Below, piece by piece: positions 587 to 26,925 of a DNA stretch of 27,585 nucleotides (the first letter of the stretch is position 1; each line of letters opens with the position of its first letter). Origin of the DNA: a virus. Both the position numbers and the translations under genes were made by a program. The notes beneath the pieces were generated by a model. It was not told the origin of the DNA. It ran no database searches and was given only the letters and a program-made list of their open reading frames with translations. Location: positions 1 to 27,585 of IMG/VR virus record IMGVR_UViG_3300006735_000179, one strand, 5' to 3'.

Positions 587-3500
587 ATGACAGCAATTAA
601 TTTTCCAATATCTCCTAGTCCTGGAGACAAACATCCAATTACAGGTAGTATAGATGGAAAGGTTTGGGCTTGGGATGGTACTACTTGGAAAATAGTATCT
701 ACTAATGGCACAGTTAATTTAACTGTAGTTGATGATACTTCACATGATCATGATTGGATAGATCTAGATGATACCCCAAGTTCTTATAGTGGACAAGCTG
801 GTAAGTTTACTAAGGTAAATGCTAATGAAGATGGTCTAGAATTTACTACGGCTCCTACAGGAGGTAGTACTTATAATGCATTTGCTGGTGTAGATGCTGG
901 TTTGGTTCCTGCATCTATATTAAGTGAAACTAATTATTATTTAAGATCTGATGGTAATTGGGCTACTCCTACTGATACCACTTACTCTAGTTTTAATAAT
1001 ACAGTAGCAGGTTTAGTACCTGCATCTGGTGTATCTTCTGGTCCGACAACATACTCAATTAATGTTACTAATAGTGGATCTGGTGCATATACTTTTTCAG
1101 GAACTGATAGAAATGGTTCTGTTTCTGGTAATAATCCCACTATTAATGTTAATGAAGGAGACACTATTAATTTTGCAGTTAATGCTAGTGGACATCCATT
1201 CTTAGTTAAGACTGTTAGTGGTACTGGTACTGGTAATCAACTTGCAAATTTTGTTAATGGAGTTGATTATACTGGTGGTGGTGTTTCGGGAAATGGAACC
1301 GCAAGTGGAACTGTTACTCTCTACACATCTGCTTTAGGAGGAACTACTCTCTATTACAATTGCCAGTATCATAGTAGTATGGCTGGATCTATTGTAATTG
1401 GTGTTGCTAGTTCTACTAATAAGTATCTCAGAGCAGATGGCACTTGGGTAGTTCCTCCTGATACTGATACTGGAGAAGATAATGTTCAGGCAGATTGGAC
1501 AGAACAAAATGGAACATCAGATGCTTTCATACGAAATAAACCTAGTGGAACTTTATTAACTACTAGTAGTAAACTTAACGATCTTGATGATGTAAATATA
1601 CCAACTAATGCTAGTTTAATAGATGTAGGAAAAATATTAAAATGGGATGGATCTAATTTTGTTATTGGTAGTGATGATCTAGGAACTGGTGGTGGAAGTT
1701 TAAATATTAAATATTTACAAGATACTGGTTCTGCTAACAATAACTACATCAGTTATTTCACTGGAGTTCAAGGTAGTTATGCAAATTACCAATTTGATAC
1801 AAATTATCCTTCAGGATTCCAGTCTCAATCTTGGAATAATTGGGGTGGATGGATAAATCCTTGGAATGCAGGAGGACAGCAAGGTGATGGTCTACTATTC
1901 TTTACTTTATCTGATAATAGTGAGACTACTTGGAGCTTAAAATTACATAGTACTTCTCCTAATACTAGTTTAACATCAGGCAATCAATGCCGTTGTTGGA
2001 CATCAACTGATGGTGTGAACTGGGTTTATCAAGGTGCAAATAACACCATAAGCACAACTACTACAATAAGTATTACAACTGCATATCTTATTGTTACTGA
2101 TCTTGGAATGGGTTCTGGAAGTGAAGTTTATCTAGAAGTTGGTAGTTCTAGTGTTGGAGGTACAAATTACTTATCTAAAACTGAACTAAGTGTTACTCAG
2201 GTTGGTAATAGTGGTACTGGTACTTTAACATATGATAATGGAGGAACACTTACATATACACCACCTTTAGTTCCTACAATACCTGGTGCTGCTACTTCTT
2301 CTTCTGCTGGATTAGTACCACAATTACCTGCTGGTACATTTTCAGATAGATTTTTAAGAGAAGATAATACTTGGGTAACTCCTCCTGATACTGATACTAC
2401 ATATAATAATTTTACTGGTGGTGTTAGTGGGTTAGTTCCAGCACCATTGGCGAATGGCAATAATGATGCTAACTTCTTAAAAGGTGATGGTACTTGGGGT
2501 ACACCTTCCGATACTAATACTACTTACTCTAATTTTACCAGTTCATCTGCTGGATTAGTTCCTATATCACCTCAATGGAGTACTACTAAGTATTTACGAG
2601 GTGATGGTACTTGGGTAGTTCCTCCAGATACAGATACAGATACTACTTACTCTAATTTTACTTCTTCAGTAGCAGGTTTAGTACCTGCATCTGGTGGTGG
2701 CACTACTAAGTATCTTAGAGCAGATGGTACTTGGCAGACTGTATCTGGAAGTGCTGATGGAAATGATTACGTTAATAATCTTTCTCTAAGTGGTACTACA
2801 TTAACTGCTTCGTTTAGCAATGCATCATTAAATCAAACTGTTGATCTTGCTTCTATAAACACAGATACTAATACAACTTATAGTGTTGTTAGTACTAGTG
2901 CTAATGGATTAGCTCCAATATTACCATCTTCACATGGTGGTAAATATTTAAAAGCAGATGGTACTTGGCAGCTTCCACCTGATACTAATACTGATACCAC
3001 TTACTCCAATTTTAATTCTTCGGCAGCAGGTTTAACACCTGCATCTGGTGGCGGTACTACTAAGTATCTTAGAGCAGATGGTACTTGGACAGTTCCTCCA
3101 GATACAGATACAGATACTAATACAACCTATAATACTTTTACTGGTGGTACTGAAGGTTTAGTTCCTAATGGAACTTCTGCTGGTAGTGATAAGTATTTAA
3201 GGTCTGATGGTACTTGGCAGACTGTAACATCTGGTGGAGGTGCTGATGGAAACGATTATGTTACTAACTTATCTTTAAGTGGCACTACATTAACTGCTTC
3301 GTTTGGTAATACATCATTAAATCAAACTGTTAATCTTGCTTCTATCAACACAGACACTAATACAACTTATAGTGTTGTTAGTAATAGTGCTAATGGATTA
3401 GCACCACAGTTACCAGCATCATCTACTGGTAAGTATCTTAAGGATGATGGAACTTGGCAAACTCCACCTGATACAAATACAGATACAAATACCAACTATT

Positions 3501-4159
3501 ATGCAAATAGTTTTTCTTTCAATAACAGTTCAAATGTTTTAAGTATAGGGTATGCAGGTAATAGTTCTTTAAACACAACTGTTACTATTAATCCTAGTAG
3601 TAGTGGTGGTGGAGATATCCCATCAGGATCTGTTATGTTATTTGCACAGAGTAGTGCTCCTACTGGATGGACAAAATCAACATCACATAACAATAAAGCT
3701 CTCAGAGTTGTAAGTGGTAATGGTGGTGGTTCTGGTGGTAGTGTTGGATTTACCAGTGCTTTCCAGAATCATAATGTAAGTATTAGTGGCAGTGATACTG
3801 TAAGTGTTTCAATTAGTGGAGATTGTACTGGAAGTCAAGTAATGTATAGAAACACCACTCAAGCATTCTTAACAACAGATCAGATGCCATCTCACCAACA
3901 CGACTACGATGTTCCTCGTGGTACTACTGGTTCTTCATATGGTTTCCAAGATACTGCAACTGGAACTTCTTCAGGTCTCCAAAAAGTTGCTAGTACTGGT
4001 GGTAGTAACTACCACACACATGCTATAATAATGTATTACATTGAAGGTTCCAACTTTAGTTTCAGTGGTAGTGGTTCTGATACTGTAAGCATTAGTGGTA
4101 GTGATTCTGTAAACACAGCAGTTCAGTATGTTGATGTTATAATATGTACTAAAAGTTAA
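587..4159 (+). CDS. Long tail fibre protein with repeat shaft, embedded cupredoxin-like domain and HxH tip
   Basis: This is an 1190-residue probable tail fibre. The shaft is made of degenerate repeats built around KYLRADGTW, PPDTDT and TYSNFTSSVAGLVPA, a pattern seen in fibres of marine T4-like phages. Residues ~155-275 form a different module that looks like a cupredoxin (separate entry). The C-terminal ~160 residues begin at IPSGSVMLFAQSSAPTGW, which resembles the phage tail collar and short-fibre tip family. They carry two HxH motifs, HQH at 1103-1105 and HTH at 1143-1145. In T4 fibre tips such motifs bind iron. The tip is therefore the likely receptor-binding end, by inference. The ATG at 587 follows the previous stop by 11 bases and lacks a strong Shine-Dalgarno sequence. 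Genes for a four-cysteine protein and a chaperone-like protein follow directly. Confidence 0.85.
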   Translation: MTAINFPISPSPGDKHPITGSIDGKVWAWDGTTWKIVSTNGTVNLTVVDDTSHDHDWIDLDDTPSSYSGQAGKFTKVNANEDGLEFTTAPTGGSTYNAFAGVDAGLVPASILSETNYYLRSDGNWATPTDTTYSSFNNTVAGLVPASGVSSGPTTYSINVTNSGSGAYTFSGTDRNGSVSGNNPTINVNEGDTINFAVNASGHPFLVKTVSGTGTGNQLANFVNGVDYTGGGVSGNGTASGTVTLYTSALGGTTLYYNCQYHSSMAGSIVIGVASSTNKYLRADGTWVVPPDTDTGEDNVQADWTEQNGTSDAFIRNKPSGTLLTTSSKLNDLDDVNIPTNASLIDVGKILKWDGSNFVIGSDDLGTGGGSLNIKYLQDTGSANNNYISYFTGVQGSYANYQFDTNYPSGFQSQSWNNWGGWINPWNAGGQQGDGLLFFTLSDNSETTWSLKLHSTSPNTSLTSGNQCRCWTSTDGVNWVYQGANNTISTTTTISITTAYLIVTDLGMGSGSEVYLEVGSSSVGGTNYLSKTELSVTQVGNSGTGTLTYDNGGTLTYTPPLVPTIPGAATSSSAGLVPQLPAGTFSDRFLREDNTWVTPPDTDTTYNNFTGGVSGLVPAPLANGNNDANFLKGDGTWGTPSDTNTTYSNFTSSSAGLVPISPQWSTTKYLRGDGTWVVPPDTDTDTTYSNFTSSVAGLVPASGGGTTKYLRADGTWQTVSGSADGNDYVNNLSLSGTTLTASFSNASLNQTVDLASINTDTNTTYSVVSTSANGLAPILPSSHGGKYLKADGTWQLPPDTNTDTTYSNFNSSAAGLTPASGGGTTKYLRADGTWTVPPDTDTDTNTTYNTFTGGTEGLVPNGTSAGSDKYLRSDGTWQTVTSGGGADGNDYVTNLSLSGTTLTASFGNTSLNQTVNLASINTDTNTTYSVVSNSANGLAPQLPASSTGKYLKDDGTWQTPPDTNTDTNTNYYANSFSFNNSSNVLSIGYAGNSSLNTTVTINPSSSGGGDIPSGSVMLFAQSSAPTGWTKSTSHNNKALRVVSGNGGGSGGSVGFTSAFQNHNVSISGSDTVSVSISGDCTGSQVMYRNTTQAFLTTDQMPSHQHDYDVPRGTTGSSYGFQDTATGTSSGLQKVASTGGSNYHTHAIIMYYIEGSNFSFSGSGSDTVSISGSDSVNTAVQYVDVIICTKS
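1049..1411 (+). other. Cupredoxin-like domain inside the tail fibre (residues ~155-275)
   Basis: This stretch interrupts the fibre repeats. It reads as a beta-sandwich with a NEGDTINFAVN strand, then SGHPF containing H203, and ends in YYNCQYHSSMAGSIVI with C259, H262 and M265. The C-x2-H-x2-M spacing is the one found in amicyanin-type blue copper proteins, and an upstream His in an S/N-x-HPF context supplies the fourth ligand. All four type-1 copper ligands are therefore present. The domain call rests on motif and spacing only. Copper binding in the virion is inference. Confidence 0.7.
2740..3470 (+). repeat. Near-identical duplicated shaft segment in the fibre gene
   Basis: Two copies of a ~200-base segment lie about 490 bases apart, at ~2755-2945 and ~3240-3430. 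Both encode ADGNDYV-NLSLSGTTLTASF followed by SLNQTV-LASINTDTNTTYSVVS. They match at most bases, including long exact runs around TTAACTGCTTCG and CTAATACAACTTATAG. Shorter KYLRADGTW units, for example at ~2703 and ~3057, are also nearly identical in DNA. This points to internal duplication or recombination between repeats. Confidence 0.8.
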
Positions 4160-4165
4160 ATTAAT

Positions 4166-4480
4166 ATGGCTCAAATCAAACCAGGAAAGTTCTGCCCTTT
4201 AATTGGGGAGGATTGTATAGAATTAAAATGTGCTTGGTATAATCAAGTTCGTGGAGTTAATCCTCAAACAGGTCAAGAAATTGATGAGTGGGGATGTGCA
4301 GTAACTTGGATGCCTATGTTGCTGATAGAAAATTCTCAAATGCAAAGACAAACAGGTGCTGCTGTAGAATCTTTCAGAAATGAAACAGTTAAAGTAAATC
4401 AACAAGCACAACAATTATTTGTTAATGCTTTAAATCAGCAGAAACCAATAAATACCATTAATCCATCTATTACACAATGA
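4166..4480 (+). CDS. Conserved small four-cysteine phage protein
   Basis: The product has 104 residues. Cysteines at positions 10, 17, 22 and 44 have the spacing C-x6-C-x4-C-x21-C. The surrounding pattern is FCPLIGEDC, KCAWYNQVRG, then DEWGCAVTWMPMLLIE. Four conserved-looking cysteines in a short protein suggest a metal site, zinc or an iron-sulfur cluster, but this is inference. The C-terminal half is Gln/Asn-rich and probably helical. It starts 6 bases after the fibre gene and overlaps the next gene by 4 bases (ATGA), so it is translationally linked to fibre and chaperone production. The family looks familiar as a hypothetical protein beside phage tail fibre genes. No function is known to me. 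Confidence 0.8.
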   Translation: MAQIKPGKFCPLIGEDCIELKCAWYNQVRGVNPQTGQEIDEWGCAVTWMPMLLIENSQMQRQTGAAVESFRNETVKVNQQAQQLFVNALNQQKPINTINPSITQ

Positions 4481-4986
4481 AGATCCAAGTTATACCTTCC
4501 GATAAAACTATAGTTCTTGACAGTGTTGCAGTACATCCTTGTACTCATGTTGATCTTTCATGGATTCCATCAGATGTTCATGGAATGTTTTTTGACACTA
4601 CCACAGGAAAAGGTTATGTTGAATATAATGAAGATGCTGTAAAAGCAGATGGAACTAAGAAATGGGGTGAAGAGATTACTGAAGTTGGTATCTGGCAACA
4701 AGCAGTAACAGATCATGCAGATGAACAAACCCTTGCAGCTGCTGCATATGAAGCAGCGAGAGATCATCTTGCAGAAGTAAAGGATTATAGAAATGCTCAG
4801 TTAATATGGTCTGATTGGACTCGTTTAGATGACATTTCAATAGCAGCAGATAAAAAAGTAGAGTGGGCTACATATCGTCAGGCATTGAGAGATCTTCCAG
4901 CAACCATAGCAGCAGATTCTAATCTAACTGCCAAAGCTTTGGCAGATGATCATTCCCATTCTTCTTGGCCAACTAAACCTTCATAG
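4477..4986 (+). CDS. Probable tail fibre assembly chaperone (Phage_tail_APC-like)
   Basis: The product has 169 residues. The N-terminal half is beta-rich and hydrophilic. Residues ~91-142 contain YRNAQLIWSDWTRLDD followed by WATYRQALRDLP, the hallmark arrangement of the phage tail assembly chaperone family (Phage_tail_APC). Members of that family sit next to tail fibre genes and are thought to help fibre folding or attachment. Its place two genes downstream of the 1190-residue fibre fits that role. The start ATG overlaps the upstream stop (ATGA at 4477-4480), so translation is probably coupled. The function is a family-level assignment. Confidence 0.75.
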   Translation: MKIQVIPSDKTIVLDSVAVHPCTHVDLSWIPSDVHGMFFDTTTGKGYVEYNEDAVKADGTKKWGEEITEVGIWQQAVTDHADEQTLAAAAYEAARDHLAEVKDYRNAQLIWSDWTRLDDISIAADKKVEWATYRQALRDLPATIAADSNLTAKALADDHSHSSWPTKPS

Positions 4987-8226: not shown

Positions 8227-8253
8227 GGGGTTGCATTTTGCGACCCCTTTTTT
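8227..8253 (+). terminator. Intrinsic terminator hairpin after the 472-residue virion gene
   Basis: GGGGTTGC (8227-8234) pairs with GCGACCCC (8240-8247), with one G-T wobble and an ATTTT loop. Six T bases follow (8248-8253). This is a standard Rho-independent terminator form. It lies 41 bases after the stop at 8185 and ends 8 bases before the ATG at 8262. Confidence 0.8.
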
Positions 8254-8261
8254 ATTGGTCT

Positions 8262-11200
8262 ATGTTCTATACCTACGAGTCAGGAGGAAGAGTCTCAAGA
8301 CCTGTATTTGACTACAGGACTGAGGTTTTGTCTGGCTCGTTTGCTGCTAGAGGTTTAGAAAGCTTTAAATTTAATCAAGGTCCAGCAGTACCACTCAGTG
8401 ATATTGGTGGTACTCTTGCACAATATGCAAGTCGTAGTATATACAATACTGAAAGTTATAGATCAGGACTAGGAATATTAAATGGTGCTCAAACATCTGC
8501 TCAAGATGTACCTGATGGATATGTACCACATCAAGGAGGACCAACATATGCATGGACAACCAACGAACTTGGTGGTAATTTAGATCCTCAAAGTAATCGT
8601 GTACTAGCACCAGCACCAAGTAGGTTCTTGGTATTCAATAATGCTGAAGAGAGTAAATCATATAGTTATCATCCTGCAATTCTTGATCTATACACTGAAG
8701 TTGACTTCGGATCAATAACGCAGAATGCTACAACAACAAGTAATAATGGTCTAGTTGCAGACCTTAATGCAACACAAGTTGAATATGGACGTATCATCCA
8801 TGTTACAGATCTAGAATCCTTTGGATTCAGTAAGACACTTAATGCTGCTTCATGGAAAGCAACTAGTGCATGGGTTGGTAGTGGTAGTCTCATATCATTT
8901 GGTAGACAGACATCTCCTGCTGTATACGGTATCATTATTGATGGTAAGGTCAAAGGTCTATCTGGTACTGCGGATGTTGACTATTCTCCTGCCTCCTACG
9001 GCAGGGGAATTCTTCCGCTACAAGGAACTTCACTCATTGGAATTGGTGCTGCACTTATTGGTAGTGGAAGTCTTAAGAAGTTTACTGGTACATCAGAGTC
9101 ATTCACAATTAATCCAGATGAGAAGCAAATGCTCTTCTCATTCTTTGGAGATGCTATACAGAAGAATAGTGAATCGTACTTTGGTAGTGGATCCCTCAAG
9201 AATTTCTCTAATGCTATAGACAAGCAAGTCTTTGCATGGAACGGATCTGGTACTATTAGCATAGTAAGTAGGAAACCATTCCTATACACCTTGGATGAAA
9301 TTGCTGATTGGATATTAGGAGATATCAGCAACAAACCACTAGGTAGTATTAAGTATGAACTCTCTGACGAGAAGCATACTGAGAGTTATAACGAATCTGC
9401 AATTGTTCCTTGGTCTGCACGTGACTATGGATCTCTTTCTGTATGTAATACAGAAGAAACTATATCTGGAGATGTATCTGGTAATGCAACTGGATGTATT
9501 GTTAAAGTTGATACAACAGCGAGAGTTGTATCTGGACAAACATATCAAGTAGCAGCTTCACTTAATGCTCCTACCGATACAGTTGATTGGGGTGATATTA
9601 CAACTATTGCTTCCCTTCAACAGGATTGGGGTTACATTTATGATAGTAGTAACCTTATGCCTCAGGGTGGTATTAAGGTTGATCCTACTGTTGGAGCTGC
9701 TGATAAGTTCTTACCTAGTTGGACTAGTCGTGGTTATATTAGTAAGATCACTGGTGTTGCTCAAGTACCACTTGATGTTGGTGTACGTGGTACTGGTGGA
9801 TTTAGATTCCTTGGAGCATCCAAAACTAACTTCAGTCTACTACAACCTGCTGATGGATTATTCACAATTCTTAGTGGCAGTAAGGCTAACTTTGGAGTTG
9901 GAATACTTGGTGATGGATCATTCTCCACGTTCTCTGGTTCTGCTGATTCAATATCCTTCAATCCTGAAGAGAAGCAATTACTCTTCTCCTTTGTTGGATC
10001 TCGTGGAAGTGAGAAACATACAGAAGTATATGTTGGTTCTGGAAGACTTAGAAACTTCGCTACACTTGAAGCAGAGAAAGGAACATTTGATTATGAAGGA
10101 TCTGGTGGTCTAAGATTACGTTCTGTCAAACCAAAACTAACAGAGCTTTCAGAAGAGAAACATACAGAATCATATAATGTCAGTGCATTTGTACCGTCAG
10201 TAGATCTTGATTATGGTCTAATCATTGATCCTACATTAGCACAGATAACAACTCTCAATACTCAGACAATTTCTTCTGATACTACTTGCCCAAGTGGTGC
10301 TGCTAGAGTTGTTCTTAATGATATTGTTACTCTTGATGCAAACTATAGTGTTCCTGCACAATATTCAACTCCAAGTAATACTTTAGATTACGGACTTGTT
10401 TCTGATATCCATAGTCCTGATGATGATTATGGTTGGATACTTGGAACCCATGCTCATGGCATACCTTATGGTATGTTTGATATTACTGGAAATGCTGGTA
10501 CTCCAAGAGTTCGTACACATGTATCTGAAGGTGGTCTGTTCAAGGTTACTGGTAAGGCATTACTTCCACTATTTGCTAGTGTATTTGGTACTGGACTATT
10601 CAAACCTCAAGGTGCATCTAAGACTAACTTCAGTCTACTTGCTATTGGTGATGGACACATCAATGGAATGTCTGGTGATGCAGCATATAACTTCAAGGTT
10701 GAGCACAGAGGTGATGGATCATTCTCTACATTCTCTGGTTCTGCTGAATCTGTTAGCTTCAATCCTGAAGAGAAGCAATTACTCTTCTCCTTTACTAGTG
10801 GATACAGTAGTCTTAAATTTACTCATGGAACATTTGATGGTGATGGAGTACTTTACAACTTCGCTGGTGGTGATGAGAGAGCAGCATTTGATTGGGTAGG
10901 TACTGGTGGTATTGAACTTAAGTCTGCTAAACCAGACACATTAACACTAAGAGATCTTGCAGATTATGGTTTAGGTACTGCTCATCCTTATGATCTATAC
11001 TTTGATCCTGATTACGATCAACTTGGAACTGTACTTCTTAAGAATCTTGGTGATGAGATATCAGAAGAGATATTTGCTAAGGCTTACAACCTTACATCTG
11101 AGATTCCATTCCAAGATCTTGATTATGGATTAATCATTGATCCTTCAACATACACATGTGTTGATACTAATGGAGATGTTCTTGCCAGCACCACTGCTCC

Positions 11201-14200
11201 AAGTGGTTGTATCAAGGTATCTACTGAACTTGCTATTTCTACAGGTGCTACTTATGCAGTACCACCTCAGACAACACAACCAACATTCTCTGAAGATTAC
11301 GGACTTATCAGCAATAGTGCTGATGAACCTCGTGATTATGACTGGATTCTTGGTACTATTGCAATGGGTATGCGTTATACCCTTGTTGATATTGTTGGTT
11401 CTGCTGCATCTAAATTCCAACCTAACTGGGTTGGTCGTGGTGGAGTTAAAGTACTTGGTGCTTCTGATACACCTCGTGCTAGAGATTACAATGCTTCAGG
11501 AACACTATTTGCAATTGATGGTTCTGCTAACGTCTTTAGTAAGGCTGAAGTTGGAGAAGGTCTATTCAAGATTGACGGTGATCCTGCAATCGCATTCAGT
11601 CCTCGTGTTATTGGTACTGGTACATTTAAGAAATTCTCTGGTGCTGCTGAGTCTCTTACCTTTAATCCAGATGAGAAGCAAATGCTCTTCTCGTTCACTG
11701 GAACTGCTGGTGACCCAGTTATTTCTTATGGTGTACTTGGAACAGGATCAATTAAAGGTCTTAGTGGATCAATCTTTACAGAGACAGATTCTTACGTTGG
11801 TTCTGGTACTATCACCTTACGTTCTGTTAAACCAGAACTTACTGAACCTTCAGAAGAGAAGCATACAGAAGTATACGATATTAATGTATGTTACGACCTT
11901 CCAGAAATTGATAATGGATTCATTATTGATGCATCACTTGCAACATGTACATTAGTAAGTGGATCTATAAGTCAGAATACCACTGCAACTACTGGTTGTT
12001 CAACTGTTGATCTTGGACAGACATTATCTATTGATGATGGAGTCACATACACAGTACCAATTCAGGTTACATCACCATCACTTACTGAACAGTACGGATT
12101 TATTGTTGATCCTGAAGATGAACTTCGTGATTATGGTTGGATTCTTGGAACTCTATCCAAGGTATGTCCATTCGGATCTATCAGTACTCTTCGTGGTACA
12201 TCTGGTCCTGCCATCAGAACATTCCGTGAAATCTTTACTGGTGAAACTGAGGTACGGCCTTACAGTATGGTTCTTAGTGGTGAAGCAGATATTGTTGTAC
12301 CACCTCAATGGGATTCACCTGCTGAACCTCCAGTCAAAGTATACGGTGCTGGTAAACCTAACTTTAGTCTTCGTACCTTTGGTAGTGGTAGATTATATGG
12401 AATGGGTGGAGCTGCTGAGACAGTTGGATACTCACCAGATACTAGTCAACTTCTATTCAAGTTTGTTCCTGGTCCGTTTGATAGATGGACAACATACGAT
12501 TGGCAACCTTCTTGGGTATCCAGAGGTGGAGTTACTATTCCAACTGGAGAAGCCAAGACTCATTATGTACCAAATGTTGTTGGTACTGGATTCTTACCAG
12601 TTCTTGCTGGAGCAGCAGAATCTATTACCTTCAATCCAGAAGAACGGCAAATGCTGTTCTCCTTTGTTGGAACAAGGATCAGCGAGAAACATACAGAAAC
12701 CTTTACTGGTTCTGGAGATATCAAAGTATATCCAGAAGCAGCAGACTTCAGATTTATTCCGAAGTATCCAGGTTCTGGACATATTCTCACCAGTGGTATT
12801 GCCAAGACTCATTATGTACCAAACGTTATTGGTACTGGTCTATTCAAGAAATTCTCTGGAGCTGCCGAGTCTATTACCTTCAATCCAGAAGAGAAGCAAA
12901 TGCTCTTCTCCTTTGTTGGAACAAGAGAAGCAGAGAAAGTATCTGTTACAGAAACAGGATTTGGTACTTTACATCTTACTGGAGAATCCACTCAGTTACT
13001 TACATTTGCCGAGCAACCATTTGGTACAATACCTGTATCTGGAGAAGCCAAGACTCATTATGTACCAAACGTTATTGGTACTGGTTCACTCAGAAAGATT
13101 GGTGGTTCTGCCGAGTCTATTACCTTCAATCCAGACGAGAAGCAAATGCTATTCTCCTTTATGGGAGAAGGAAGAGACAGCAAATCTGTTGTTGCAGGTG
13201 GATCTGGTACTCTCTTTGGATTCAGTGGTGCATCTGTTGTTACAGCATCTGCCTACGAAACTCAAGGTCTGTACAGAGTCAGTGGCGAAGTACATATTGT
13301 ATTCTCTCTTACACACTTTGGTTCTGGTACATTCAGGAAATTTGGTGGATCAGCAGAGTCTATTACTGTCAACCCAGACGAGAGACAACTTCTATTCTCC
13401 TTCGCAGGTGAAGGTAGTGAATCTCTTGGTGTTGCTGAGACCAAACATATTGAAGTTGATATCAGTGGAAAGGCAGATCCAGTTCTCAGGACTCATGCAT
13501 TCCAAGGATTTGGAACAATTTCTGTTACTGGAGAAGCCAAGACTCATTATGTACCAAACGTTATTGGTACTGGTCTATTCAAGAAATTCTCTGGTGCAGC
13601 AGAATCTCTTACTGTCAATCCAGAAGAGAAGCAAATGCTCTTCTCGTTTACTGGAGAGAAAGAAGAAAGCATACTTGTCAGAGAAATCAGCAAAGGTGGA
13701 ACTCTTACATTCTCTGGTACATCTGGAGATCCACTACTTACATTTGCAGAGCAACCATTCGTTCAAACCAAGATCAGTGGAAAGGTTGCTTTCACTGTTC
13801 ATCGCAGTATATTTGGTACTGGTTCACTATTTGGATTTGGTGGTGCAGCAGAATCTATTGCGATTGTACCAGAACCAAGTACGATTCTATTCCAAACATC
13901 TGGAGAATCAGAGCTCAGACTTACACGTTCTTATATTGGTTCTGGTACTCTCAGAAAAATCAGTGGTGCTGCGGAATCTATCACAGTCAATCCAGACGAG
14001 AGGCAGATGCTATTCTCGTTCACTGGAGAAGGTGCAGATTCCAGAACAGCGAGAGAGATTGGAACAGGAACTCTTACTACAACTGGAGAAGCAGGAGTTC
14101 TTCTCAGGTTTGCACACACTGGAGAAGGTACAATATCTCTCAGTGGAGATGCTCATACAACCAGAGCAAGAGACTTCGTTGGATTTGGAAACATTCCAGT

Positions 14201-14582
14201 TCTTACAGGTGCAGCAGAATCTATCAGCTTCAACCCAGACGAAAAAGATCTTCTATTCTCTTTCTTTGGATCAAGGATTTCCGAGAAGTCAACATTCAGA
14301 GAACTCAGTCAGGGTGGCACTCTTACAGTCGGAAGTACATCAGGAGATCCACTACTTACATTCGCAGAGCAGCCATACGTTGAGATTGACATCACTGGAG
14401 ATAGTTATGATGTTCGTACACGTGCATATCAAGGTTCTGGAAGAATATCAAATGTCAATAACCTTGATGAGGCATTTGCTATTGCTCCATACATCGGTAG
14501 CGGTAGTGCAACAATTACTGGTAAGGCACTAGTACAAGTACAACTATTCCAGCCACCACACGTACAAGTCTGGATTATTTGA
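8262..14582 (+). CDS. Giant repeat fibre or adhesin-like virion protein, 2106 residues
   Basis: One open frame contains 13 copies of a motif close to NPEEKQMLFSF, usually preceded by GTGxFKKFSGAAESITF. The first half (~8262-12200) also holds four copies of a module reading EEKHTESYN, DYGLIID, VPxQ and DYGWILG. The second half is almost entirely 81-83-residue repeats. It ends GSGSATITGKALVQVQLFQ, then a short Pro/His tail. It is too regular to be an enzyme, and no catalytic motif was seen, so a long fibre or surface protein is inferred. The frame stays open up to a TTG at 8238, but that lies inside the terminator hairpin. ATG 8262 is preferred, although it lacks a clear Shine-Dalgarno sequence. 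Overlapping long open frames in other registers reflect the repeated low-stop sequence. Confidence 0.85.
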   Translation: MFYTYESGGRVSRPVFDYRTEVLSGSFAARGLESFKFNQGPAVPLSDIGGTLAQYASRSIYNTESYRSGLGILNGAQTSAQDVPDGYVPHQGGPTYAWTTNELGGNLDPQSNRVLAPAPSRFLVFNNAEESKSYSYHPAILDLYTEVDFGSITQNATTTSNNGLVADLNATQVEYGRIIHVTDLESFGFSKTLNAASWKATSAWVGSGSLISFGRQTSPAVYGIIIDGKVKGLSGTADVDYSPASYGRGILPLQGTSLIGIGAALIGSGSLKKFTGTSESFTINPDEKQMLFSFFGDAIQKNSESYFGSGSLKNFSNAIDKQVFAWNGSGTISIVSRKPFLYTLDEIADWILGDISNKPLGSIKYELSDEKHTESYNESAIVPWSARDYGSLSVCNTEETISGDVSGNATGCIVKVDTTARVVSGQTYQVAASLNAPTDTVDWGDITTIASLQQDWGYIYDSSNLMPQGGIKVDPTVGAADKFLPSWTSRGYISKITGVAQVPLDVGVRGTGGFRFLGASKTNFSLLQPADGLFTILSGSKANFGVGILGDGSFSTFSGSADSISFNPEEKQLLFSFVGSRGSEKHTEVYVGSGRLRNFATLEAEKGTFDYEGSGGLRLRSVKPKLTELSEEKHTESYNVSAFVPSVDLDYGLIIDPTLAQITTLNTQTISSDTTCPSGAARVVLNDIVTLDANYSVPAQYSTPSNTLDYGLVSDIHSPDDDYGWILGTHAHGIPYGMFDITGNAGTPRVRTHVSEGGLFKVTGKALLPLFASVFGTGLFKPQGASKTNFSLLAIGDGHINGMSGDAAYNFKVEHRGDGSFSTFSGSAESVSFNPEEKQLLFSFTSGYSSLKFTHGTFDGDGVLYNFAGGDERAAFDWVGTGGIELKSAKPDTLTLRDLADYGLGTAHPYDLYFDPDYDQLGTVLLKNLGDEISEEIFAKAYNLTSEIPFQDLDYGLIIDPSTYTCVDTNGDVLASTTAPSGCIKVSTELAISTGATYAVPPQTTQPTFSEDYGLISNSADEPRDYDWILGTIAMGMRYTLVDIVGSAASKFQPNWVGRGGVKVLGASDTPRARDYNASGTLFAIDGSANVFSKAEVGEGLFKIDGDPAIAFSPRVIGTGTFKKFSGAAESLTFNPDEKQMLFSFTGTAGDPVISYGVLGTGSIKGLSGSIFTETDSYVGSGTITLRSVKPELTEPSEEKHTEVYDINVCYDLPEIDNGFIIDASLATCTLVSGSISQNTTATTGCSTVDLGQTLSIDDGVTYTVPIQVTSPSLTEQYGFIVDPEDELRDYGWILGTLSKVCPFGSISTLRGTSGPAIRTFREIFTGETEVRPYSMVLSGEADIVVPPQWDSPAEPPVKVYGAGKPNFSLRTFGSGRLYGMGGAAETVGYSPDTSQLLFKFVPGPFDRWTTYDWQPSWVSRGGVTIPTGEAKTHYVPNVVGTGFLPVLAGAAESITFNPEERQMLFSFVGTRISEKHTETFTGSGDIKVYPEAADFRFIPKYPGSGHILTSGIAKTHYVPNVIGTGLFKKFSGAAESITFNPEEKQMLFSFVGTREAEKVSVTETGFGTLHLTGESTQLLTFAEQPFGTIPVSGEAKTHYVPNVIGTGSLRKIGGSAESITFNPDEKQMLFSFMGEGRDSKSVVAGGSGTLFGFSGASVVTASAYETQGLYRVSGEVHIVFSLTHFGSGTFRKFGGSAESITVNPDERQLLFSFAGEGSESLGVAETKHIEVDISGKADPVLRTHAFQGFGTISVTGEAKTHYVPNVIGTGLFKKFSGAAESLTVNPEEKQMLFSFTGEKEESILVREISKGGTLTFSGTSGDPLLTFAEQPFVQTKISGKVAFTVHRSIFGTGSLFGFGGAAESIAIVPEPSTILFQTSGESELRLTRSYIGSGTLRKISGAAESITVNPDERQMLFSFTGEGADSRTAREIGTGTLTTTGEAGVLLRFAHTGEGTISLSGDAHTTRARDFVGFGNIPVLTGAAESISFNPDEKDLLFSFFGSRISEKSTFRELSQGGTLTVGSTSGDPLLTFAEQPYVEIDITGDSYDVRTRAYQGSGRISNVNNLDEAFAIAPYIGSGSATITGKALVQVQLFQPPHVQVWII
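9364..12180 (+). repeat. Four long-period modules in the giant fibre gene
   Basis: Four copies of an acidic, Tyr-containing module lie at ~9364-9690, ~10150-10480, ~11065-11400 and ~11850-12180. Each runs from EEKHTESYN (or a degenerate form) through D-[Y/N]-G-[L/F]-I-I-D and a Cys-containing Thr/Ser stretch to VPxQ and DYGWILG. The first copy is the most diverged (it has DWGYIY for DYGWILG). Each copy is separated by GxGxF-SGxAES-NPEEKQ-LFSF sequence, giving a long period of about 770-900 bases. Confidence 0.75.
12540..14270 (+). repeat. Short-period (~246 base) tandem repeats in the giant fibre gene
   Basis: The first codon of the NPxE motif falls at 12633, 12882, 13128, 13371, 13617, 13866 (degenerate), 13989 and 14232. 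The steps are 249, 246, 243, 246, 249, 123 and 243 bases. The 123-base step is half a unit, so each ~82-residue unit is two ~41-residue halves. The DNA of the segment encoding AKTHYVPNV is almost identical in four copies, near 12550, 12800, 13050 and 13540. Confidence 0.85.
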
Positions 14583-15463: not shown

Positions 15464-18400
15464 ATGGCAGATTTTAGACTCGGTAGACTAAAGTTTAAGT
15501 GGCAAGGCGATTGGACGGCTTCCACTGCTTATGTCATTGACGATATCGTCAAGTACGGTGCAAACTCATATGTTTGTGTAAAGAACCACACTTCTGCAAA
15601 TGCAGAAACTTCATTCTATACAGTAGATATCAGTGCTCAGTACTGGGATCTTCAAGGAGAAGGTACTGAGAGTAAAGGCGATTGGGGAGCTGCTGTTTGG
15701 TATAAACTTAATGATGTAGTTAAGTTTGGTAATACACAATATCGTTGTACAAGTGGTCATACTTCTGGAGCAACATTTGACACTACAAAATTTATTGTTT
15801 ATGTTGAGGGTCTAAATTTTGAAGATTCTTGGACATCAAACAATCCATATCAGAAAGGAGACATTGTAACATATAGAGGTTACAGCTATATTAGTAAGAC
15901 AACTCATACAAGTGCTACTACTCCTAATAACGATACAACAAATTGGGATGTAGTTACAACTGGTTTTTCTGCTCAAGGTGAATATGCTGCTGCCACAACA
16001 TACGCTCCAGGTGATGTTGTAAGATATGGTGGTAACACTTATGTTAATAAGGTAGGTTCTACTGGTGTTGCTCCTACAACTTCTGCTAATTGGGATCTTA
16101 TTTCAGAAGGATTCAACTGGACAGGTGGATGGGATTCTGCAACTGTATACCAATTAGGTGACGTTGTTAATAGAAACTCAAACTCTTATGTTTGTAAGAA
16201 CTCAGATACTTCTGGTGCTTCTACAGCTCCTGAATTAGATCCAGGCGGAACATATTGGAACTACGTTGCACAGGGTGGTGACACTGCACAGGTTCTACAA
16301 GAGACTGGAGACCTTCTCTATCAGGCAGCAAGTGGTGTTAACAGGATTGCCCTTCCATCTGGTGCAGCAACTGCTAACGCTGCTCAGAGCACTGTTACAG
16401 CGACAGGTGCAGATTATACTCCTTCTACAGGTGTACTTCAAGTTACTGTTGCTTCTCATGGATTCACTACAGGAGACTTTGTTAAGTTTGCTGATGGTTC
16501 AATCACATTTACTTGTGCTAAGGATGGTAACGCTAGTAACCACCCATACCCACGTGCAACTGACCCAGCTAGCAAGAAGTTCCTAGAACTAACTGTTGTT
16601 AATGCAAATACATTTACAGTTAATGTTGGTATTTCTTCTGATACATCTGCACATACATTTGTTTCTGCTGTTACAGACGGAATCACAAGAGTTGGTAACG
16701 TATCTGCTGAAAGAGAAGCAAGTGGTCAAGTACTAACAGTTGGTGGATCACCTCTACTACCTCAGTGGGAAAGAAATAACGTATCAGAAAGTGTCTACTA
16801 TGTCACAAAGGAAGGATCTGATGCTAACCACGGTAAGAGTATTTCTAGAGCATTCGGTACTCTAAGACATGCATGTGATTTCATTAGTGGTTTAACAGGT
16901 TCTCAAAAACCTTCTCCTACAAATCTACTTACAATCTTTGTTAAGTCTGGTGTATATTCAGAAGTTCTACCAATTATTGTTCCCGAACATGTTTCAATTA
17001 TTGGTGACAACTTAAGAACTTCTATCATTAAGCCTGCTCTCGGTGATTCCGACATGCAAGCTTTAGTACTTGCTTCTAATGTTACACACCTAAGATTTGG
17101 TGAGACTATCAGTAACTCTACTGGAACCAAGACCGCTATGGTTCTTGATTCTGACTACCAGAATAACGTCCATCTACTTAACTTAACTGGTGGAGTTTGG
17201 ACTGCTGCTGATAAGTATGTTGATATCGTAGACAACAAGGCTGCTGATGCACGTGATCTACTTATCACAAACAGAGCATTCATTGCTGCTGAAGCTTATC
17301 ATCGCCACGCAGCAAACGAAGGTGCTGTAACTGGTACTGAAGCTACTGTCAAGGAACGTCTTGCTGCATTAGTTGATGCTATTGGTTTCAACGTCAAGCA
17401 TGGTAACAACAATAAAGTATATGATTATACTACTGCTTTGCTTGGTGGTTCTGCTATAACTGGAGACAATACTCAAGATACAGCACTTGCCAACTACATT
17501 GAAACAGTTGGTATTGAAGTCGCTCGTAACGAAGTTGTTTCTGCTTCTGCTGGTAACACTCTTACACAGACAAGAGACCTCACAATTACTTCTGATGGTT
17601 CTAATCCTAAATGTGTCAACGTTGCTTCTGCAATGACAACACTTGTTGGTATAGTTACTTCTGCTATTGCTAATGGTGACCTGTCTGGTACTACCAGTTC
17701 AGAACCATATATTGATATTTCTACTGTAGCAACTCGGATTAACTCTGAGTCTACAATGTGCTTGCTTGGTTCTCATACTACTATCAAGGAGATGGTATTT
17801 GACGGAATGACTGGATTCCAAGCTGGTGCTGATGATAAGGATATGGACACTGCTACCATTAAGGGTGTGTTCTTCAGATTTAATCCTAATTCACCGATTA
17901 CTAAGTCACCATACATTCAGAACTCTACCATCTTTGCTGGAGCAGCAGTTGGTATTCTACTTGATGGTGCTGTACATAACCACTTTAATGATTCGTCAAC
18001 ACCTTCATACAAATCAATGGTGTTTGACTCCTTTACTCAGGTACTAGATGGTGGTGTTGGTATTTACGTTACTAACGCTGCTGCAACTGAGATTGTATCA
18101 TCATTTACATACTACGCTCATATTTCCTACACTGCTACACGTGGTGGTAGAATTCGTGCTGTTACTGGTAACTCATCTTACGGTAAGTATGGTGCAATTG
18201 CTAGAGGATTTGATTCTGCTGAGACAACCATTGATGGTTTCGTCAAAGGTAAGCGTCTTACAATTGATACTAACGTGCCTCTTAGTGGAGCTCTCACTAC
18301 AGGAGAAAATCTTGTTGGTGGAACATCAGGTGCTGTTGGAGAACTAATCAATGACCAAAATGGTTCTGGTTTCTTATACTACTTCCCAGTTAAGGGAACC

Positions 18401-20212
18401 TTCCAACAAGGTGAGGTAGTTACAGGTGCAACATCTGGTGTTGCTGCAACTCTTGTAAACAACACAGATGCTGTTCAAGGACAGAAAGGATTTATTCTTA
18501 CAGTTGTAGGATTAGGTACTGCTCCTGATTCTGGTGGATCTGTTTCTCTTGATGATAATGGAGTTAACGATGACACTGGTTCATACGTTATCTCTAATGC
18601 TAGTTACGTAGCACAGGATGGTAGAGGTTCAATAGGAGTTGATAGAGGTCTCTTAGGAAGTTCTTCTGCAACACATGATGGTACTACTGCTATCTCATTG
18701 TACGCTGATGCTGGAAACGATACAACACTTTCTGGATCAGTTGCTTCAGGTGCAGCTTCACCTGTAACAATGCAAGTTGCTAGTGTTACTGGAATGACCA
18801 TTAACGGATTCATCATTATTAATGATGAGATGTTCAAGGTTGTTTCATTCCCATCTGCAACATCTGTTGAAGCAGAACGTGCTCAAGAGGGTACATCTGC
18901 TGGAGCACACGCTGCTGCTGCCTCTATTGCAATAGTTAATGCTAAGATTGCATCTCAGGATGTATTGATTGAAGACGTTGCTATTAACGATTTAACACTT
19001 CGTGTTGCTGCTGCAAACATTGGTCTTGATCCTACTGACTATATCAAGATTGATAATGAGTTTATGAAGATTACAACTGTTACTGCTGATACAACTGGTA
19101 TCACAACACTACAGTTGGCAGATGAGAAGACAGTTGAAGCTGGAGACGGACAAGGATTCAAGACACGTTATAGGTACTCACAAGTACGTCTAACTGCTCA
19201 TGACTTCCTAGACGTTGGTACTGGAAGTAAGGCTAATACTAACTGGCCTGGTCTTCCACTATCTGCTAACGTTCCTTCTAACGAAACAGACGAAGCTCGT
19301 CCAGGTCGTGTTTACTACGTATCTACTGACCAAGATGGTAACTTCTCTGTTGGTAAGTTCTTTAAAGTTGAGCAGTCAACTGGTAAGGCAACACTAGACG
19401 CTTCTGCGTTTGACTTGTCTGGTCTATCAAGTTTGAGACTTGGTTCTATCGGTGCTCAGTTGGGTGCTGCTATTGACGAATTCTCTACTGATGGTACATT
19501 GTCACAGAACAGTGACCAGAAGGTTGCTACACAAAAAGCAACTAAGACATACGTTGATAACCTTTCAGCACTTGGTGGTAACCTCACCATCGCTGGTAAC
19601 TTAACAGTTAAAGGTACAACAACATCTATCAATTCTGTTACGTTGACTTCCAAGGATCGTAACATTGAATTGGGTAAGGTTGCTATTGGAAGCTTTACTG
19701 GTGATATATCTACTGGTTCAGCAGATATCACTAACTGTAGTGATATGGACAACATCGCACCTGGTGTAGCAATCACGCTAACTGGTAGTGGTGGTACAGT
19801 TACACTTCCTTCTGGAGGTATCGTAACTGCTGTTGTTGGAACTACAGTAACACTTGATCAAGTATTCCAAGGATCTGGAACTGCTGCTGGTGCTGCATTA
19901 GCAACAGGTGGTGCTTCAGATACAACTGCAAACTCTGGTGGTTTGACTGTTCTTGGTGCAACCAATAAGACAATCCAATGGTTGTCTTCTAACGACAAGT
20001 TTAATTTCAATAAAGGTATTGAACTTGCAAATGGTGAAGGTCTCACCATTAATGGAACCTCTGTATTAACAGAGACTACAATGATGGGTAAGACCGTCAT
20101 CACTGATTTGACTAATGCGGATCACACACAATTTGCTACTGCTGGTGCAGTTAAAGATTATGTTGATAATCCTGCTAATAGTCTTAGTTACTTCCTTGCT
20201 ACAATGGCATAG
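15464..20212 (+). CDS. Large virion protein: five CBM5/12-like modules and probable beta-helix region
   Basis: The product has 1582 residues. Residues ~11-273 hold five tandem modules of about 50 residues with the pattern W-x(4-6)-Y-x3-D-[I/V]-V-x-[Y/F]-G-x-x-Y, like the chitin-binding CBM5/12 fold. Residues ~325-420 form a beta-rich domain with VASHGFTTGDFV and FTCAKDGN, also known in marine phage proteins. From ~440, VYYVTKEGSDANHG, AFGTLRHAC and VPEHVSIIGDN look like the start of a pectate-lyase-type beta-helix. The C-terminal part has VATQKATKTYVDN and NLTVKGTTTSINS, fibre motifs. An AGGA lies 10 bases before the ATG. The role is inferred to be a glycan-binding tail or fibre protein. No complete catalytic site was seen. 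Confidence 0.8.
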   Translation: MADFRLGRLKFKWQGDWTASTAYVIDDIVKYGANSYVCVKNHTSANAETSFYTVDISAQYWDLQGEGTESKGDWGAAVWYKLNDVVKFGNTQYRCTSGHTSGATFDTTKFIVYVEGLNFEDSWTSNNPYQKGDIVTYRGYSYISKTTHTSATTPNNDTTNWDVVTTGFSAQGEYAAATTYAPGDVVRYGGNTYVNKVGSTGVAPTTSANWDLISEGFNWTGGWDSATVYQLGDVVNRNSNSYVCKNSDTSGASTAPELDPGGTYWNYVAQGGDTAQVLQETGDLLYQAASGVNRIALPSGAATANAAQSTVTATGADYTPSTGVLQVTVASHGFTTGDFVKFADGSITFTCAKDGNASNHPYPRATDPASKKFLELTVVNANTFTVNVGISSDTSAHTFVSAVTDGITRVGNVSAEREASGQVLTVGGSPLLPQWERNNVSESVYYVTKEGSDANHGKSISRAFGTLRHACDFISGLTGSQKPSPTNLLTIFVKSGVYSEVLPIIVPEHVSIIGDNLRTSIIKPALGDSDMQALVLASNVTHLRFGETISNSTGTKTAMVLDSDYQNNVHLLNLTGGVWTAADKYVDIVDNKAADARDLLITNRAFIAAEAYHRHAANEGAVTGTEATVKERLAALVDAIGFNVKHGNNNKVYDYTTALLGGSAITGDNTQDTALANYIETVGIEVARNEVVSASAGNTLTQTRDLTITSDGSNPKCVNVASAMTTLVGIVTSAIANGDLSGTTSSEPYIDISTVATRINSESTMCLLGSHTTIKEMVFDGMTGFQAGADDKDMDTATIKGVFFRFNPNSPITKSPYIQNSTIFAGAAVGILLDGAVHNHFNDSSTPSYKSMVFDSFTQVLDGGVGIYVTNAAATEIVSSFTYYAHISYTATRGGRIRAVTGNSSYGKYGAIARGFDSAETTIDGFVKGKRLTIDTNVPLSGALTTGENLVGGTSGAVGELINDQNGSGFLYYFPVKGTFQQGEVVTGATSGVAATLVNNTDAVQGQKGFILTVVGLGTAPDSGGSVSLDDNGVNDDTGSYVISNASYVAQDGRGSIGVDRGLLGSSSATHDGTTAISLYADAGNDTTLSGSVASGAASPVTMQVASVTGMTINGFIIINDEMFKVVSFPSATSVEAERAQEGTSAGAHAAAASIAIVNAKIASQDVLIEDVAINDLTLRVAAANIGLDPTDYIKIDNEFMKITTVTADTTGITTLQLADEKTVEAGDGQGFKTRYRYSQVRLTAHDFLDVGTGSKANTNWPGLPLSANVPSNETDEARPGRVYYVSTDQDGNFSVGKFFKVEQSTGKATLDASAFDLSGLSSLRLGSIGAQLGAAIDEFSTDGTLSQNSDQKVATQKATKTYVDNLSALGGNLTIAGNLTVKGTTTSINSVTLTSKDRNIELGKVAIGSFTGDISTGSADITNCSDMDNIAPGVAITLTGSGGTVTLPSGGIVTAVVGTTVTLDQVFQGSGTAAGAALATGGASDTTANSGGLTVLGATNKTIQWLSSNDKFNFNKGIELANGEGLTINGTSVLTETTMMGKTVITDLTNADHTQFATAGAVKDYVDNPANSLSYFLATMA
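15485..16285 (+). repeat. Five tandem carbohydrate-binding-like modules
   Basis: Module starts are near residues 11, 69, 123, 174 and 223 of the 1582-residue protein. Each has an early aromatic (W or Y), D-[I/V]-V, a [Y/F]-[R/G]-x-x-[S/T/Q]-Y strand, then a Thr/Ser-rich loop and a closing W, as in KGDIVTYRGYSY and PGDVVRYGGNTY. This is the CBM5/12 pattern. The copies differ clearly in DNA, so the duplication is old, unlike the repeats of the 2106-residue fibre. Confidence 0.75.
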
Positions 20213-26277: not shown

Positions 26278-26925
26278 ATGACTACAAATTATGGTGGTGA
26301 TCATTGGGAATATATAAATCCATTCCCGTACATCTACAAAAGTAGATTTGATTTTGAATTTGATACATTTAAAGATAAAGTAGATGCTCATCTTACAGAG
26401 TCAAAAAAAGTTACTGATAAACAAAATCTCATAACACCTGAAAAAAATGGTGGTATAACTAGTGTTGTTTTACATAGAAAACCAGATAATATATACCCAC
26501 ATAAGTGGTCAGAATTTGGATTAGAATTTGATGGATTTCTTAATGATTCTCTAAAAACTATATGGGATGAAAGATTTTACGATCAAGGACTTGCAAAATA
26601 TATTGAAAGATCATGGATTAATGTTCATTACAAAGATGGTTATACAGAAGAACATCTCCATCATGGTGTTGACGTTGCTTGTGTTTGTTATTTAAAAGTT
26701 CCTGATAATTCTGGTGGTCTTCAAATAAAAAATCCTTTATCAGCATATGATACATCCGAACCTAAAGTAGACACTTATTATTATGAGGGAAAGGATTGGG
26801 TTACCATTGATGTAAAAACCAATGATGTTATCTTTTTTCCAGGTTGGTTGTTGCATAGAACAGAACCAAATAAGGTTGACGAGGGAAGATATGTCATGTC
26901 TCTCAATGTGCGACATATGAATTAA
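26278..26925 (+). CDS. 2-oxoglutarate/Fe(II)-dependent oxygenase superfamily protein
   Basis: The product has 215 residues. It has the double-stranded beta-helix signature of phage 2OG-Fe(II) oxygenases: WINVHYKDGYTEEHLHHGVD, then ACVCYLKVPDNSGGLQI, then DVIFFPGWLLHRTEPN and YVMSLNVRH. Candidate iron ligands are H126 or H128, D132 and the distal H193. R204 is the likely 2-oxoglutarate-binding Arg. Such enzymes hydroxylate a protein, nucleic acid or small molecule, and are common in cyanophages. The substrate here is unknown. It starts 5 bases after gp16 with no clear Shine-Dalgarno sequence, so it may be read through translation of the gp13-gp16 string. Placement between gp16 and the next cassette suggests co-expression with packaging genes. 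Confidence 0.85.
   Translation: MTTNYGGDHWEYINPFPYIYKSRFDFEFDTFKDKVDAHLTESKKVTDKQNLITPEKNGGITSVVLHRKPDNIYPHKWSEFGLEFDGFLNDSLKTIWDERFYDQGLAKYIERSWINVHYKDGYTEEHLHHGVDVACVCYLKVPDNSGGLQIKNPLSAYDTSEPKVDTYYYEGKDWVTIDVKTNDVIFFPGWLLHRTEPNKVDEGRYVMSLNVRHMN

Follow-up and report, generated by a model that had tools for sequence, protein, structure and literature searches.

A cupredoxin domain with a predicted type 1 copper site as an exchangeable module of a marine phage tail fiber

Known blue copper proteins and the fiber locus

The familiar roles of blue copper proteins are those of a free electron carrier or of a component of an oxidase; one such protein, amicyanin, has a C-x2-H-x2-M ligand loop. 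Amicyanin, pseudoazurin, and plastocyanin are free-standing exported electron carriers; amicyanin is encoded beside methylamine dehydrogenase, and plastocyanin is a stand-alone photosynthetic carrier. We analyzed a 27,585 nt stretch of viral DNA (IMG/VR record IMGVR_UViG_3300006735_000179, positions 1 to 27,585; hereafter the window), in which a domain that shares with these three proteins a predicted cupredoxin fold and the His…Cys-His-Met ligands is embedded in a 1190-residue tail fiber, among phage tail and neck genes. Unlike the exported carriers, this fiber module has neither a signal peptide nor a visible redox partner. Its ligand loop has the amicyanin spacing, as is visible in alignments, whereas the first-ligand motif of its family is H-P-F in place of the P-H-N of plastocyanin. 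Cyanophages encode plastocyanin (petE), described in connection with photosynthetic electron transport (PMC3037559). Cyanophage petE is likewise a copper protein but forms a separate gene, whereas the window cupredoxin is a domain of a virion protein.

Among the nearest known counterparts of the fiber is PSSM2_028 of P-SSM2, a cultured Prochlorococcus phage. The N-terminus and C-terminal tip of the window fiber, together with the next two genes, are syntenic with PSSM2_028-030, and the two fibers share a related adapter (39% identity), the cupredoxin domain (46%), and the tip (38%). PSSM2_028 differs in its collagen-like shaft and is annotated only as "phage tail fiber-like protein". The genes concerned in the window are as follows:

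587–4159, + strand: tail-fiber protein of 1190 aa (from the ORF, its repeats, and synteny with P-SSM2)
4166–4480, + strand: small conserved protein 3′ of the fiber gene, 53% identical to PSSM2_029
4477–4986, + strand: phage tail assembly chaperone (PF16778), 45% identical to PSSM2_030

The fiber comprises a short N-terminal adapter, ten GLVP…KYLRxDGTW repeats, two inserted modules, and a C-terminal tip, which contains HxH pairs and was assigned as collar-like by eye and from its match to P-SSM2, with no match in Pfam. The long repetitive shaft, the collar-like tip, the adjoining PF16778 chaperone gene, and the synteny with P-SSM2 are those of a T4-like tail fiber. Elsewhere in the window, a gp15-like tail-sheath stabilizer is 61 to 63% identical to those of marine T4-like cyanophages and a single-cell marine virus.

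Fold and ligand set of the domain

The earlier note on this DNA had read a blue copper site into the fiber, with H203, C259, H262, and M265 as its ligands. In the translation of the ORF at 587–4159, the four residues are present exactly as claimed; they map to their positions, which rules out misnumbering or a frame error. The domain and its ligands lie at these coordinates:

1052–1405, + strand: cupredoxin domain, residues about 156–273, with 10 predicted strands (AlphaFold2, Foldseek against the PDB, and profile against the PDB)
1193–1195, + strand: H203, first histidine ligand, directly ahead of a strand
1361–1363, + strand: C259, cysteine ligand, closing the penultimate strand
1370–1372, + strand: H262, second histidine ligand
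1379–1381, + strand: M265, axial methionine ligand

The ligand loop reads C259-Q-Y-H262-S-S-M265, that is, C-x2-H-x2-M, and the first histidine lies 56 residues from the cysteine, a spacing that is mostly 46 in the family and ranges from 40 to 84. Cysteine is rare in the fiber, with five residues in all. None of 20,000 shuffles of the fiber protein produced the pattern H-x(30-79)-C-x2-H-x2-M; this result and the invariance of the ligand columns in 45 relatives rule out a chance motif.

Structure prediction of residues 152–276 by AlphaFold2, with relatives in the alignment, gave a pLDDT of 93.7 and a pTM of 0.88. The predicted strand map is that of a cupredoxin: the first histidine precedes a strand, the cysteine ends the penultimate strand, and the loop with the second histidine and the methionine precedes the last one. 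From these predicted strand positions, the four ligands should converge in space. AlphaFold2 and Foldseek agree on the Greek-key β-sandwich (about 8 strands) expected of this fold. Nearly all of the 50 PDB matches listed by Foldseek are copper-protein cupredoxins (best E 9e-5), led by a nitrite reductase of Hyphomicrobium denitrificans (2dv6), rusticyanin, and small laccases, at moderate TM-scores of about 0.36 to 0.54; one non-copper entry, 3njm, stands among the top 15. These matches rule out a fold other than cupredoxin, the outcome that the earlier note had said would count against its reading. The label "amicyanin-type" that it gave the site fits the C-x2-H-x2-M spacing and not the fold, for which the Hyphomicrobium copper nitrite reductase (CuNiR), rusticyanin, and the small laccases are the better matches. 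Rusticyanin and the Hyphomicrobium CuNiR themselves differ from the window domain in being longer proteins of about 17 to 22% identity in another protein context. On the predicted model, residues about 156–273 of the fiber almost certainly form a complete cupredoxin fold.

Sequence comparison links the family to blue copper proteins at significant scores. The family profile finds CuNiR, plastocyanin, amicyanin, azurin, and auracyanin in the PDB (best E 0.003), and one phage relative (L063) aligns with pseudoazurin 3tu6 (E = 4e-5), each of the four ligands falling opposite its counterpart. The first ligand is shifted by two residues relative to plastocyanin in the profile alignment, and histidine falls on histidine in the pseudoazurin alignment. 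The window copy alone gave no significant match to known blue copper proteins and no hit to PF00127 or PF13473 above the cut-off, which is a curated threshold and not a structural criterion; among the 45 relatives, three match PF00127 and one PF13473 at E below 0.01. The At5g54830-like domain PF25489 is matched by eight of the 45 phage copies at E up to 0.01, whereas the window copy (E = 0.016) scores 15.6 bits, below the curated cut-off of 27. The fiber carries no copper-domain annotation in Pfam or NCBIfam, and its PHROGs labels are tail or unknown only; annotation overlooks the domain because the window copy, taken by itself, hits none of the curated copper families.

Relatives and exchange of the module

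The domain was found at 71 loci when viral contigs were scanned, and a tblastn search of phage records returned 46 of them, nearly all from cyanophages. The seed set had been found partly with the search peptide LYYNCQYH, which spans the Cys-His loop; we therefore also checked copies recovered by plain tblastn and by profile search, and the ligands of the plain-tblastn copies agree with those of the seed set. In an alignment of 45 non-redundant homologous domains, which are 31 to 78% identical to the window copy, only seven columns are invariant: H53, P54, Y107, C109, H112, M115, and G117 (H53 is a label in the tool's numbering; with counting from 152, H203 becomes residue 52 of the construct). 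The seven include all four ligands, and the remaining proline, tyrosine, and glycine lie close to them. Over a wider set of viral and bacterial copies that includes phage isolates found by tblastn, 107 of 111 carry His, Cys, His, and Met at the ligand columns. The four exceptions are a copy cut by a contig end (L070), an alignment slip in a copy whose sequence does carry HPF (L038), and two partial copies in phage S-CAM1. The earlier note had named ligands that are not conserved in homologs as a second outcome against it, and they are conserved in 45 of 45 non-redundant copies and 107 of 111 overall. With the fold and these ligands, the fiber domain very probably holds a copper-capable type 1 site.

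The two S-CAM1 copies lie in tandem in the proximal tail fiber (L084:3329-5584); one has C-H-M and the other H only, and they are possibly a decaying or rearranged pair.

Phage structural proteins commonly bear immunoglobulin-like β-sandwiches as optional decorations, and the cupredoxin domain is itself optional among the sisters of the window fiber. The fold and its residues might on those grounds be kept by descent alone, in a metal-free adhesion or spacer module of the immunoglobulin-like kind. Four ligands spread over more than 60 residues that stay strictly the same when identity to the window copy falls elsewhere to about 31% are hard to explain without a metal, and we regard the metal-free reading as unlikely.

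That the module looks inserted between stretches of fiber repeat, as had been claimed from the sequence, is borne out by the repeat itself, by a sister fiber that lacks the domain, and by the fiber of contig L001, which shares only that stretch. The interrupted repeat is divided as follows:

1010–1030, + strand: GLVPASG (residues 142–148), left half of the interrupted repeat
1415–1447, + strand: TNKYLRADGTW (residues 277–287), right half of the interrupted repeat

The shaft consists of ten GLVP-(loop)-KYLRxDGTW units, in nine of which the motif starts are 11 to 14 residues apart. They are 137 residues apart in the tenth, and the domain therefore lies inside the loop of one repeat, replacing the short loop found in the others. 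The window fiber and the cupredoxin fiber of contig L001 have only residues 144–285 in common (67% identity); this domain pair has a dN of 0.14 and a dS of 0.44, which indicates purifying selection. The sister fiber L098 matches the window fiber from residue 300 to the tip and has no cupredoxin domain, which makes the domain optional, and another sister fiber, L096, carries a different, diverged copy at another place. In P-SSM2, the shaft is collagen-like, yet the domain is present. These comparisons together characterize the module as optional, exchangeable, and retained across a change of shaft. Base composition gave no signal of recent foreign origin (GC 0.364 for the domain versus 0.366 for the rest of the fiber).

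The second non-repeat module of the window fiber, WNNWGGWINPWNAGG...CRCWTSTDG (window 1682–2266, residues about 366–560), has copies that are 78 to 88% identical in other fiber contexts, namely in L096, in L098, and in the gene after the cupredoxin fiber of L001. It has no match in Pfam, and its structure prediction, from a shallow alignment of three sequences, has a pLDDT of 37.

Beyond these fibers, the phage proteins that carry the cupredoxin domain bear the annotations tail fiber, proximal tail fiber, baseplate wedge-fiber connector, and S8 protease, and the domain stands at the extreme C-terminus in 20 of 78 non-redundant copies. A search for the motif in other phage fibers, as the earlier note had suggested, thus finds it recurring in fiber, baseplate, and S8-protease proteins of aquatic phages. 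By sequence, the domain is a recurrent virion module of aquatic phages and not peculiar to the window phage. All 45 alignment members match phrog_677 and phrog_9158; the domain is contained in phrog_9158, phrog_677 (baseplate wedge tail fiber protein connector), phrog_15006, and phrog_892 (tail fiber), which are whole-protein clusters, none of them labeled copper or cupredoxin in the tables shown. Matches in BFVD include "beta-sandwich" proteins of Pithovirus and Marseillevirus and a "blue type 1 copper protein" of Fadolivirus.

Four proteins of ACG-2014 and S-H9-1 phages (L073, L074, L075, and L076) are S8 (subtilisin) proteases or resemble proteases, with the cupredoxin domain at their C-terminal end, and their genes directly precede a structural protein gene.

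A related domain is also found in 15 of 296 genomes of the phylum of a Flavobacterium-labeled record. Several Bacteroidota carriers (L106-L108, L090, and L111) are lipoproteins that combine CHRD repeats with a cupredoxin-family domain at the C-terminus, all four ligands of which are intact; these are cellular lipoproteins and not virion parts. It is possible that they represent the cellular source of the phage domain or a sister group to it.

Possible roles of the domain

We propose that the cupredoxin domain was spliced as an exchangeable module into one loop of the fiber repeat, and that other phages spliced the same domain into collagen shafts, baseplate-fiber connectors, and S8 proteases. 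Each fiber chain would bind one copper ion, which would amount to three per fiber if the fiber is a trimer. We place copper loading after release from the cell, in sea water or at the host envelope, because free copper is almost absent from the cytoplasm where phage proteins fold. The bound metal would then lock the β-sandwich, which would be free of disulfides, and the locked sandwich would project from the fiber as an accessory host-contact module. We judge it rather more probable than its opposite that the whole account holds, with a type-1-copper-capable cupredoxin as an exposed, metal-stabilized accessory module of host-contact proteins. For the stabilized host-contact role of the domain, taken separately, our confidence is evenly divided. 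Such a role would not require electron transfer. Electron transfer and docking to a copper receptor are possible, with less support than stabilized host contact.

The fiber-displayed copper might be taken as cargo by an outer-membrane copper receptor of the host. Azurin, itself a cupredoxin, interacts with OprC, a TonB-dependent copper transporter of Pseudomonas aeruginosa (PMC6907878), which provides a precedent for such metal presentation. It would transfer to copper the Ferrojan Horse idea, which concerns iron in tail fibers and in which the HxH motifs of marine phage fibers have been discussed (PMC11705849); HxH pairs are present in the tip of the same window fiber. The cupredoxin domain, however, lies in the N-terminal quarter of the fiber and not at the tip, and docking is less obvious for the baseplate connectors, proteases, and giant-virus proteins that also carry the domain. 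We therefore hold metal presentation to be quite unlikely.

The HxH pairs of the collar-like tip (window 3893–4021) are HQH at residues 1103–1105 and HTH at residues 1143–1145. They resemble pairs proposed as iron binders in marine phage fibers, and the window fiber may thus have two kinds of metal site, the cupredoxin site and the tip HxH pairs.

Electron transfer is the normal task of a type 1 site, and the ligands here are all intact, as would suit a blue copper center that passes electrons to and from the host envelope or oxidizes a surface ligand during attachment. We consider such a redox module very unlikely: the window proteins examined include no redox partner, second copper site, or cluster, no electron-transfer partner for the domain is visible in the window, and the proteins in which the relatives are found are structural ones or proteases and have no oxidoreductase domain. 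Cupredoxin sites accept other metals in vitro. A site that binds zinc or iron in nature is nonetheless highly improbable, even with iron known in the HxH sites of phage fibers (PMC11705849), as the Cys-His2-Met ligands of a cupredoxin are those of a type 1 copper site, and copper proteins give the closest matches in both sequence and fold.

The recurrence of the domain in fiber, baseplate, and protease proteins of many aquatic phages suggests that the host-contacting parts of some virions bear copper. A broader version would have many marine T4-like phages bearing copper, with loaded blue copper domains in fibers, baseplate connectors, and virion proteases that aid engagement of host copper-uptake receptors or envelope redox chemistry; we view that version as decidedly doubtful. 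If particles do bear copper, virions would join the oceanic pool of copper ligands.

The domain itself is a cupredoxin and so of a known kind. As far as we searched, its occurrence as a virion fiber module with an intact predicted copper site is undescribed: the open-license papers that we covered included no relevant one on cupredoxins or blue copper in tail fibers or virions. Some copies of the domain may already be labeled in automated databases. An exchangeable copper-site domain in phage host-contact proteins would, if true, be a new use of the cupredoxin fold, place copper on marine virions alongside the iron already discussed, and allow parts of several PHROG families labeled tail or unknown to be named for a function. 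The cultured carriers (P-SSM2, S-CAM4, and ACG-2014 types) make the domain directly testable.

Other genes of the window include a 2114-aa repetitive protein with GSG and FNPDEKQMLFSF repeats (8238–14582), which has no match in Pfam, and a 2OG-Fe(II) oxygenase gene (26278–26925) close to that of the gp15-like tail-sheath stabilizer. Between them, at 15464–20212, the window encodes a protein of 1582 aa that contains four family 5/12 carbohydrate-binding modules.
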